Of a stretch of 64,000 bases of DNA, positions 19,737 to 49,442 are shown in pieces. Below the pieces are notes generated by a model. That model was not told where the DNA came from. It made no database searches and saw nothing but the letters and a program-made list of their open reading frames with translations. This stretch comes from Cetobacterium sp. NK01. GTDB lineage: Bacteria > Fusobacteriota > Fusobacteriia > Fusobacteriales > Fusobacteriaceae. The stretch's first letter is position 1. Each line of letters starts with the position of its first letter. Both the position numbers and the translations under genes were made by a program. Location: positions 310,001-374,000 of the forward strand of contig NZ_JANIBO010000002.1 in the NCBI RefSeq assembly GCF_024506395.1, written 5' to 3'.

Positions 19737-19880
19737 AATATCATTTCTCCTAAATTTGTGAAGTTTAGCGGAAATATAAAAAATGCGAAAATGAATAGAA
19801 TATTGCTAATTAGAATTGAAATTGACAGTTCTAAATACAAATCTGTTCACCGCAGATTTTATATTTTCTTTTATATTCAT

Positions 19881-20008
19881 GGCAGATATCCTGACTCAGA
19901 TTCATCCTACTCTTAGGCCTTCCCATAAAAACTACAGTGGCTTAGTCTAATTTCGTCCTCCTTACAGTGGCGGGACCGTGCGAGATTTTCACTCAACTTT
20001 CCTTTTAA
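19881..20008 (-). ncRNA. Cobalamin riboswitch upstream of the cbi operon
   Basis: On the minus strand the segment reads GTGAAAATCTCGCACGGTCCC, then GCCACTGTAA, GACGAAATTAGAC, a B12 box AGCCACTG (complement at 19935-19942), GGGAAGGCC and GATGAATCTGAGTCAGG. This is the conserved order of the AdoCbl riboswitch core. No clear U-tracted terminator lies between it and cbiP. A hairpin AATCTG/CAGATT at about 19840-19860 could belong to the expression platform. The rest of 19737-20224 contains no gene that I can support. Confidence 0.95.
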
Positions 20009-20224
20009 TCAAATTATTGAACCATAAATATTATACATATTTATCATAATTATACATAATGATTATGCACAAGTCAACCTTTTTTAAAAGTTTATGTTTA
20101 AAAATTAAACTTAATTTTACGTATATATTTTCATATAAAAACTTTCAAGAAATAAAAAAGAAAAACAAAATTTATTCGTAAATTAAATGTGACAATATTA
20201 AATTTTATAAGGGAGTGATTAAAT

Positions 20225-29331: not shown

Positions 29332-29357
29332 AAAAACCTCCAATTGGAGGTTTTTTT
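29332..29357 (+). terminator. Rho-independent terminator of dhaT
   Basis: AAAAAACCTCC-AATT-GGAGGTTTTTTT directly follows the stop codon of dhaT. On the other strand it also ends the convergent lipoprotein operon. Confidence 0.92.
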
Positions 29358-29721
29358 AATATGATGAATTATACGGTTGGCTATAGTATGGTCTATCGTA
29401 TTGTTGATTATACTGATTATTGTATTGAGGCTGATTATATTGAGGTTGACCTCCATACTGCGGTTGATTATTATAATAAGGTTGTTGATTTGTATCTTTT
29501 ATTGCTTGAGTTTGATCTTGAACAGATCCTACTAAAGCTCCTGCTGCCGCTCCTATTCCTGCACCTAAAAGAGTCGCACCAGTGTCTCCTCCAATCGCTT
29601 GCCCTAAAAGTGCTCCTGCTCCTGCCCCTACTGTTGTAGATCCTATAGTATTAGAACCAACATTAGAACATCCTGATAAAAGCATTATAGACAAAACTGA
29701 TAATACAAGATATTTTTTCAT
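29356..29721 (-). CDS. Glycine-zipper lipoprotein with Gln/Asn/Tyr-rich tail
   Basis: The 121-residue protein has a lipobox (SIMLLSGCSN, Cys at 18). A Gly/Ala zipper follows (GAGAGALLGQAIGG and GAGIGAAAGALVGS, about 32-67), as in the YMGG/glycine-zipper-2TM outer-membrane lipoproteins. The tail from about 75 repeats QPQY/NQY units. It starts behind AAAGGAG, 28 bases after the stop of the putative selenoprotein gene, so it is likely the third gene of that operon. Related proteins affect envelope stability; a specific role is unknown. Confidence 0.82.
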   Translation of the reverse strand: MKKYLVLSVLSIMLLSGCSNVGSNTIGSTTVGAGAGALLGQAIGGDTGATLLGAGIGAAAGALVGSVQDQTQAIKDTNQQPYYNNQPQYGGQPQYNQPQYNNQYNQQYDRPYYSQPYNSSY

Positions 29722-29749: not shown

Positions 29750-30043
29750 TTATTTATTTTCTTCTACACCTATTATCATTGGAAAAAATGGAATTTTTAG
29801 CACTTTAAAAATTCTATAGTTTTTATGTTTAGGTACACTTCTATCTATATAAACATTCACATTTTTATAAACTATTTTTTCTCCACATTTTTGTTTCTTA
29901 TCTCCTGTTATAAGATCAACCTGAACATCAAATATAACCGGACATCATTTACTTCCTTTAGTATCTTCTAAATATAATTTGATATCTTTGACATCTTTTT
30001 CTCTTAAATAGTTTAAAACTTCTTCATCAATATTTATATCCAT
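29750..30043 (-). CDS. Putative selenoprotein: HesB-like / CC-Se-motif protein with in-frame TGA (Sec33)
   Basis: The frame begins at ATG 30043 (MDINIDEEVLNYLREKDVKD) and runs 97 residues to TAA at 29750-29752, interrupted only by TGA at 29947-29945. The TGA is codon 33 and is followed by TGT, giving GSK-U-C-PVIFDVQ. The Sec-Cys pair and the preceding pattern of a helix with NYLREKD, then IKLYLED and a Gly-Ser turn, match the small HesB/IscA-like proteins whose CC motif becomes UC in some anaerobes (family knowledge). The 65 codons after the TGA stay open, with a second Cys in KQKCGEK. A hairpin immediately downstream looks like a bacterial SECIS. The ATG sits seven bases after GAGG and overlaps the upstream small membrane gene's region. 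A pseudogene or sequencing error remains possible. Function may be redox or metal/sulfur handling. Confidence 0.75.
29905..29947 (-). promoter_or_regulatory. Candidate bacterial SECIS element at the TGA of the selenoprotein gene
   Basis: Downstream of the TGA, GUUAUA (29938-29933) pairs perfectly with UAUAAC (29912-29907). An inner GAU/AUC helix closes a ten-base loop GUUCAGGUUG that contains GGU. The loop begins 18 bases after the TGA, within the distance known for SelB-recognised hairpins. A 3x1 internal loop separates the two helices. Confidence 0.62.
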
Positions 30044-30045
30044 TA

Positions 30046-30207
30046 TTATTCCTCTACAATTATAGTTCTATTTATCATAAACTTTATAAGAGAAAATAAA
30101 AAGAATGGAGACGCTAATCCAAATGTTATTACAACTAAAACTGTCCATCCCAATAGAAATAATAAACTATCTGCAAAACCTACATCACATCTTAATCTTC
30201 TAGACAT
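30046..30207 (-). CDS. Small membrane protein (DUF898-like), upstream partner of the selenoprotein gene
   Basis: A 53-codon frame starts at ATG 30207 (MSRRLRCDVGFADSLLFLLG) and ends with TAA at 30048-30046. It has one long or two short hydrophobic helices (LLFLLGWTVLVVITFGL and PFFLFSLIKFM), then a charged end. The LGW...ITFG...PFF pattern recalls the repeat unit of DUF898/YjgN membrane proteins. Ribosome site AAGAGGTGAAG precedes it. Its own 3' end supplies the GAGG site for the next gene. No function can be assigned. Confidence 0.65.
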   Translation of the reverse strand: MSRRLRCDVGFADSLLFLLGWTVLVVITFGLASPFFLFSLIKFMINRTIIVEE

Positions 30208-30365
30208 TTTCTTCACCTCTTTATTATTTTTATTCTATAATAATATATTTTTTCTTTTAATTTTACAAGATTTTTTCTAAACAATCTATTTCAACTTCTA
30301 GACATTAAATAATTAATATTGTATAATAAAGAGATAAAATTAAAGAAAAGTGAGGAGTTTATAGA

Positions 30366-34963: not shown

Positions 34964-35061
34964 TGTTTTTTTCCTTTCGTAATTTTTCTTGAAATATTAT
35001 ATCACTTTTAAAGAAAAAAGAAAATTTTATTTGATTTTTTTTTAATTTGATGTACAATAAC

Positions 35062-35152
35062 CTTGCTAGGGGTGCCTTTTAGGCTGAGAGACTTTTATGA
35101 AAAAGTTAACCCTTCGAACCTGATTTGGTTAAAACCAACGTAGGGAAGCTAT
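35062..35152 (+). ncRNA. TPP riboswitch (THI element)
   Basis: The segment has GCTAGGGGTGCC, GGCTGAGAGA and ACCCTTCGAACCTGAT, then GGTTAAAACCAACGTAGGGAAGC. These are the conserved THI-box elements in the right order. It precedes a terminator and the thiSGHFE operon, so thiamin pyrophosphate should stop transcription. Confidence 0.97.
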
Positions 35153-35182
35153 TTTATTTAGTTATTCAATTAACTTTTTAAG

Positions 35183-42690: not shown

Positions 42691-42702
42691 TAAAATTCTA
42701 AA

Positions 42703-42779
42703 TGGTGCCTAGAAAAGGATTCGAACCTTCGACCGCCCGGGTATGAACCGGGTGCTCTAGCCAACTGAGCTATCTAGGC
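42703..42779 (-). tRNA. tRNA-Met (CAT)
   Basis: The minus strand folds as a cloverleaf with GCCTAGA / TCTAGGC acceptor, D-stem GCTC, anticodon loop TTCATAC (CAT), GGTTCGAATCC T-arm and an encoded CCA. G1-C72 pairing means it is not the initiator. An Ile2 (lysidine) reading of CAT cannot be ruled out. Confidence 0.9.
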
Positions 42780-42782
42780 AAA

Positions 42783-42857
42783 TGGCTGGGGTGGCTGGAT
42801 TCGAACCAACGCATGACGGAGTCAAAGTCCGTTGCCTTACCGCTTGGCGACACCCCA
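42783..42857 (-). tRNA. tRNA-Gln (TTG)
   Basis: Acceptor TGGGGTG / CACCCCA, anticodon loop CTTTGAC (TTG), GGTTCGAATCC T-arm and encoded CCA. The T1-A72 pair is typical of glutamine tRNAs. Confidence 0.95.
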
Positions 42858-42862
42858 AATAG

Positions 42863-42938
42863 TGGTGCGTCATACTGGGCTCGAACCAGTGACAACACGA
42901 TTAAAAGTCGTGTGCTCTACCATCTGAGCTAATGACGC
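42863..42938 (-). tRNA. tRNA-Lys (TTT)
   Basis: Acceptor GCGTCAT / ATGACGC, anticodon loop CTTTTAA (TTT), GGTTCGAGCCC T-arm and encoded CCA. Confidence 0.96.
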
Positions 42939-43356: not shown

Positions 43357-43513
43357 TTAAAAAGAAACTAAGCGCCAGAACTTTTTTAAGTTGACGAGGA
43401 CTGGAATCATCGAACATTCGGCGGGTATTCCAGAGGTGACTACAACCTTAGACCTTCTACAAATCTAAAAGGTGACTTTTAGGACAAAGGAAAGTAAGTA
43501 GTAATTCTTCTTA
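43357..43513 (+). ncRNA. glmS ribozyme-riboswitch
   Basis: The leader of glmS contains AAGCGCCAGAAC with the cleavage site before G43372, AGTTGACGAGGA, ATCGAACATTCGGCGGGTATTCC, and GGACAAAGGAAAGTAAGTAG near the 3' end. These are the conserved core strands of the glucosamine-6-phosphate-activated ribozyme, in order. A candidate promoter is TTGCAA (43304-43309) and TACCAT (43327-43332), 17 bases apart. Cleavage should lower glmS mRNA when GlcN6P is high. Confidence 0.96.
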
Positions 43514-49060: not shown

Positions 49061-49156
49061 AATTAGGAGTTTTTATTTAATTACAAAAAATCATGTCATA
49101 AAATATACTCTTATTTCTTATTTTTCCCCCACGAAAAACAAAAAACTAAATTTTAA

Positions 49157-49297
49157 ATAAGTCTCCTGACTCAGCTTCATCCTACTTCTAATCCTTCCCA
49201 GATTTTTTCCAGTGGTTTATTAGTTTCGTCTGCAATACAGTAGCTTGGGGCTGTGTGGGATTCTCACCCATCTTCCTCTATTAAGCCTTTTGGCATT
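49157..49297 (-). ncRNA. Cobalamin riboswitch upstream of the TonB receptor
   Basis: On the minus strand the core reads GGTGAGAATCCCACACAGCCCC, GCTACTGTA, GACGAAACTAATAAACCACTGG (B12 box variant), GGGAAGGATTAGAAGTAGGATGAAGCTGAGTCAGGAGAC. The order and spacing match the AdoCbl riboswitch class. The rest of 48982-49442 contains only its terminator and AT-rich spacer. Confidence 0.95.
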
Positions 49298-49442
49298 TAA
49301 AATACTTTTACAATATAATACTTTAATTTCAATTTGTCAATTATTTGAATATAGTATTTATTTTTTGAATAATTTCTAAAATTTTTGCTATTTTTTGTAA
49401 TATAAAAAGGGAGTCTTTAACCCTCCCTTTTTAATTTTATTA

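Follow-up and report, generated by a model that had tools for sequence, protein, structure and literature searches.

The 64,000-nucleotide stretch of Cetobacterium sp. NK01 DNA analyzed here (the window, i.e., G000:C2:310001-374000 on contig C2 of 609,639 bases) carries on its minus strand what is very probably a genuine, overlooked selenoprotein gene, judging from its reading frame and from orthologues with the same TGA. This gene spans 29750..30043 (97 codons, the span including the stop codon) and encodes a predicted HesB/IscA-like protein with a selenocysteine-cysteine (UC) motif. Its frame runs from an ATG at 30043-30041 to a TAA at 29752-29750 and is uninterrupted except for a single TGA at codon 33 (29945..29947), the predicted selenocysteine (Sec) codon, which was present in all 11 TGA-form loci aligned. 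Directly 3' of it lies a TGT (Cys34, 29942-29944), and with the TGA read as Sec the product has 97 residues and contains TKGSK-U-CPVIFDVQVDL. The sequence AGAGGA is found 5' of the ATG, which itself begins 2 bases past the stop of an upstream gene for a DUF6693 protein. Frame, TGA-Cys arrangement, ribosome site, and operon position are thus as claimed by the original prediction, which was made from the letters of this DNA.

Twelve Cetobacterium genomes were compared, among which four (the window's included) had the TGA form, one (G001) had a Cys form, and seven gave no match. The window protein shared 67, 66, and 65% amino acid identity with the three other TGA forms and 50% with the Cys form, and the TGA-form copies differed in length by whole codons. 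Over the 63 codons after the TGA, the ratio of nonsynonymous to synonymous substitution rates (dN/dS) between the window gene and the three other TGA forms was 0.38, 0.36, and 0.42; a value of 1 was reached in 7, 2, and 3 of 500 codon bootstraps, respectively. The corresponding value against the Cys form was 0.53 (24 of 500 bootstraps reaching 1). The same TGA was observed in a further C. somerae strain (L065), and a scan of genome contigs yielded two relatives, both from Cetobacterium. Frameshifts or random substitutions after the TGA had been named beforehand as signs to the contrary, and the relatives instead retain both frame and TGA. Alignment with the TGA read as U or C, which had also been proposed, revealed the close Cys form (L026/P0042), which reads SKCCP at the UGA position.

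Beyond Cetobacterium, a search of the phylum with the family alignment gave matches in 18 of 98 genomes. These comprised the five Cetobacterium genomes, three of genus g14 (CC form, no stop), seven of the eight of the Fusobacteriaceae genus g12 (one TGA each), and three weak matches (G015, G027, and G028) that were not counted as family members. The g12 proteins (L053-L059) read G/S-G-U-C-A/S-G. They share with the Cetobacterium group an in-frame TGA followed by TGT and an identical downstream RNA motif at equal distance, and the two groups aligned with a probability of 98.1% in hhalign (E 7.6e-14). However, they are only 25% identical in the profile alignment, and the g12 genes have another neighbourhood, beside a Lon-type protease-like gene (recognised by eye). 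The alignment to g14 is ambiguous by one residue: Sec33 corresponds to the second Cys of the CC pair when counted from a conserved Gln, and to the first if a gap is placed. In a comparison of 16 sequences, no Cys/Sec feature other than the UC or CC pair was common to all, and the UGA site held either TGA or a Cys codon, relatives without TGA having Cys and never Trp. These 16 were extracted by pair-containing patterns; their loci came from pattern-free searches and, duplicates aside, only four weak phylum matches were left out, i.e., L060 and L061 (C-x-x-C), L063 (C-x-C), and L062. Many relatives bear the label PF28096, which the Pfam search did not report.

The genome encodes the complete machinery whose search had been suggested, including the selC and selB whose lack would have told against the prediction, each component scoring above its curated cut-off. 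Specifically, we detected selA (578.1 bits versus 267.9), selB (284.8 bits versus 242.25), selD (377.5 bits versus 125), and tRNA-Sec (selC; 68.6 versus a gathering value of 47), all inside 1.823-1.831 Mb of contig C1. In a selection of 18 genomes, 14 had tRNA-Sec above the cut-off and 14 had selA; of the 11 TGA-form genomes, all had the tRNA and 10 had selA. Within Cetobacterium, selA was present in 11 of the 12 genomes, the exception being G001, which carries the Cys form; in this 82% complete assembly no selA was detected and no tRNA-Sec exceeded the cut-off. The Cys form is nevertheless not solely an outcome of trait loss, because the three g14 genomes possess selA and tRNA-Sec yet have Cys in the protein. 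The gene had also been put forward as a marker of the selenium machinery; it turned out to be a poor one, since it occurs in only four of the 11 Cetobacterium genomes with selA and seven have selA without it. As a separate observation, selD itself (L017, G000:C1:1829984-1830889) is a predicted selenoprotein gene with its own in-frame TGA at GGUASKI and a downstream hairpin that satisfies the published limits described below.

Downstream of the UGA, all 11 TGA-form sequences aligned carry UUCAGGUUGA in columns 23-32 (numbered from the U). Its counterpart in the window, TTCAGGTTGA (29916..29925, minus strand; the same columns counted from the first TGA base), is from alignment and folding the predicted core of a bacterial selenocysteine insertion sequence (bSECIS) hairpin, and the fixed distance would fit such a signal. 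Folding of the 20 bases around the motif gives a GGU-loop hairpin in all seven g12 copies and in three of the four Cetobacterium copies. At the closing pair (columns 22/34), g12 has C-G where Cetobacterium has G-C, i.e., both sides have changed. The Gln codon within the motif is CAG in 11 of 11 sequences, while CAG makes up 12.7% of the 370 Gln codons in 52 open reading frames (ORFs) of the window; the Cetobacterium Cys form has CAA. According to a figure legend, a bSECIS has a loop of 3-9 nt with a G in the first two places, a spacing of 16-37 nt, a stem of at least 4 pairs, and a folding energy of at most -7.5 kcal/mol (PMC13188914). We applied these limits to stretches of 45-57 bases at three fold lengths, counting a sequence as passing if one or more folds passed. 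They were satisfied by all four Cetobacterium TGA copies, five of the seven g12 copies, and selD, and failed by the Cys form. L024 passed with the GGU loop and L023 and L025 passed too, while the window copy passed by another fold, in which the TGA plus 48 nt downstream (29897..29947, minus strand) has the loop GUUCAG, a spacing of 18, and an energy of -10.1 kcal/mol.

Several observations temper the prediction of a conserved insertion signal, and one tempers what the open frame says about the gene. The window copy of the shared hairpin was unfolded, with a U-U mismatch in the stem, and folding of this copy as a single sequence at four lengths gave no significant result (z of -0.44, -0.65, -1.00, and +0.14). 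The covariation amounts to one pair and probably one event, which is modest support. In 500 shuffles, 9 reached the observed covariation score and 28 the percentage paired, and 123, 467, and 499 reached the other three measures. The core of the Cys form also folds (AGU loop, -2.1 kcal/mol), the g12 copies L055 and L056 fail the bSECIS limits, 131 of 1953 TGAs in the window pass them as well, and the motif's Gln codon is also CAG in three g14 Cys forms. As for the gene, 61 of the 1950 TGAs in the window (both strands) were followed by at least 64 open codons, compared with 117 of 21,181 (0.55%) in first-order Markov sequence built from the window, and the open frame alone is only moderately improbable by chance. 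A chance frame is disfavoured because frame and TGA are conserved in other Cetobacterium genomes with dN/dS below 1. A filtered read-through scan of the window returned only one other candidate, at 42702-42929 (+), which coincides with the tRNAs clustered around 42.7 kb and most probably represents an artefact.

The gene stands in a row of three genes. Upstream (30046..30216, minus strand) lies the gene of the small DUF6693 protein, which has 53-56 residues depending on whether it starts at the GTG at 30216 or the ATG at 30207 (49.2 bits versus a cut-off of 31). Downstream (29356..29721, minus strand) lies the gene of a lipoprotein-like protein with a YMGG-like glycine zipper (32.4 bits versus 28.9). 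A weak sigma-70-like promoter match (9/12; 30240..30268, minus strand) was found 5' of all three genes; the region contains 11 such sites against 6.9 expected, hence the weakness of the signal. The promoter scan of the region gave weak matches only, and the terminator scan gave none. A flavin reductase gene is divergent from the trio, with genes for an iron-containing alcohol dehydrogenase and a diol dehydratase farther out, and transporter genes are also among the neighbours. In four gene-less genomes (G002, G007, G010, and G011), the DUF6693 and lipoprotein-like genes are adjacent with no room for the selenoprotein gene. For the others, the 1.5 kb examined contained the lipoprotein-like gene alone in G003 and G005 and neither flanking gene in G004.

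A 5 kb region surrounding the gene shares 87% identity with two C. somerae replicons (704,842 and 664,419 bases), both recorded as plasmids. The window is therefore probably part of the corresponding large secondary replicon in a Cetobacterium species, as far as sequence identity indicates. Compared with C. somerae CS2105-BJ, the synonymous divergence (dS) of the gene was 0.74 and that of five neighbours 0.31-0.85, while the nonsynonymous divergence (dN) was 0.23 versus 0.008-0.034. The protein thus evolves at 7 to 28 times the rate of its neighbours, with the UGA and the downstream RNA motif remaining fixed. Judging by these divergences, the gene is a long-standing resident with a fast-changing protein. 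A recent replacement by a foreign copy between the window and C. somerae was considered and is unsupported, the dS being equal to that of the neighbours, and phage records contained no match to the gene. The window also contains two cobalamin riboswitches (19864-20041 and 49139-49315), a thiamine pyrophosphate (TPP) riboswitch (35058-35163), and a glmS ribozyme (43360-43505).

Fold prediction for the protein resembled IscA/SufA, and a HesB-type fold is accordingly considered likely. IscA-type proteins have three ligand cysteines, including a C-terminal Cys-x-Cys. The A-type iron-sulfur (Fe-S) carriers IscA/SufA/ErpA (PF01521) differ from the window protein, which scored 18.8 bits, below the curated cut-off of 26.3, and no C-x-C occurs after residue 60 in any of the 16 sequences. 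Similarity to the CC/Se motif family NF041239 (Moorella) is found in size and, going by the family name, in an adjacent pair with Cys or Sec; six of the seven members of family alignment A2 matched it at E up to 10 (best 9.4e-7). On the other hand, the window protein reached 14.9 bits (residues 1-78) against a cut-off of 40, which compares with 25.9-29.3 for the g14 relatives P0045-P0048 and 32.6 for the first g12 member, and the Cys form P0042 had no match. PMC13188914 lists the CC/Se motif family as a selenoprotein family with the motif CxxU, as opposed to U-C here. It also lists a small HesB-type selenoprotein, which our protein resembles in kind, with the motif UxGP rather than the U-C-P-V seen here (PMC13188914). 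The model of this HesB-like selenoprotein (TIGR01911) did not match the window protein at E up to 1, and a metagenome relative (P0050) matched it weakly (12.8 bits versus 66.35). A sequence search against solved structures gave two chance-level matches for alignment A2 and none for alignment A5. The original prediction of a HesB/IscA-like CC-motif protein is supported by the predicted fold and the sub-threshold PF01521 match, and is qualified by the scores below the PF01521 and NF041239 cut-offs and by the missing C-terminal ligand cysteines. The comparisons very probably place the gene among divergent relatives of the CC/Se and HesB-like families, with scores under the curated cut-offs.

Taken together, the explanation that we consider best, and regard as highly probable overall, is that the UGA is decoded as Sec and that the protein has an IscA/HesB-type fold with an adjacent Sec33-Cys34 pair. 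The SelA/SelB/SelD/tRNA-Sec system would decode UGA 33, SelB delivering the Sec-tRNA aided by the downstream hairpin. Sec33-Cys34 would then be located in the loop that is taken to carry the first cluster-ligand Cys of IscA-type proteins. There the pair may act as a redox centre cycling via a selenenyl-sulfide instead of as a Fe-S scaffold. We consider a redox role more plausible than cluster assembly because the C-terminal ligand cysteines are missing and the UC/CC pair is kept; for the redox role as such we see about even chances. In our ranking of possible functions, selenenyl-sulfide redox chemistry would come first and soft-metal binding next. The broader proposal of a subfamily beyond the curated models tried, in which a HesB/IscA fold without Fe-S ligands has turned into a selenenyl-sulfide redox protein, is tentative and rather doubtful.

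Binding or detoxification of a soft metal or metalloid via the Sec-Cys pair would be a possible though somewhat unlikely function. In its favour, soft metals are bound well by a selenol and a thiol that lie next to each other. PMC13188914 links several newly discovered selenoprotein families to the handling of mercury and arsenic. However, 25 kb of C. somerae p1 contain 28 features without a single metal resistance annotation, and the neighbours are of other kinds (DUF6693, glycine-zipper, flavin reductase, transporters, and diol dehydratase). It is unlikely, too, that in this genome, where no canonical IscA was detected, the protein is an A-type Fe-S carrier (IscA/ErpA-like) binding a cluster through Sec and Cys, possibly in dimeric form. 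The predicted fold and the sub-threshold PF01521 match agree with such a role, as does the lack of any PF01521 match in this genome compared with 9 of 14 control genomes, in a search of limited reach that missed the window's own protein. The C-terminal ligand cysteines, however, are missing in all 16 sequences, and the gene is unmatched in 7 of the 12 Cetobacterium genomes.

Existing annotation bears on whether the UGA encodes Sec at all. The gene table for C. somerae CS2105-BJ in PLSDB, itself incomplete, has no coding sequence at the locus, and that for C. somerae strain ceto (p1) has a 'hypothetical protein' starting at codon 48, after the TGA. These tables, along with the fast divergence of the protein, would fit a TGA that is a true stop, leaving either a pseudogene or a 32-residue peptide plus a separate internal short ORF. 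This reading is very improbable given the frame and TGA retained in four Cetobacterium genomes with whole-codon length differences, the dN/dS below 1 after the TGA, the TGA or Cys codon in 16 of 16 sequences, and a second genus with the same arrangement. At the UGA site, 50 database proteins show W in 42 cases and C in six, two being fragments without the site. The W in P0007 and P0032 is a reading convention, because these proteins equal L025 and L023 letter for letter if TGA is written as W and the DNA of both has TGA; in the other 40, whose DNA is not covered by that comparison, we infer that W is probably a table-4 reading. Decoding as tryptophan or plain read-through, to which these W residues might point, can be practically dismissed, since relatives without TGA carry Cys and not Trp, the genome has the full Sec machinery, and TGA terminates 5 of the 49 open frames of at least 200 codons in the window.

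Very probably, then, the gene belongs to a divergent subgroup of a known broad kind (i.e., small HesB-like or CC/Se motif selenoproteins), and the redox function outlined above is proposed for its product. Titles, abstract openings, and passages returned by a literature search held no description of this gene or of Cetobacterium selenoproteins. The finding adds a predicted selenoprotein to Cetobacterium, a genus common in fish guts; zebrafish and catfish are the sources of two C. somerae records. It also shows that such a gene is missing or truncated in the gene tables of complete C. somerae replicons. With a Sec form, a Cys form, and an empty site within one genus, the family offers a compact system for testing what advantage Sec brings to an adjacent Sec-Cys pair and how a HesB fold can function in the absence of Fe-S ligands.
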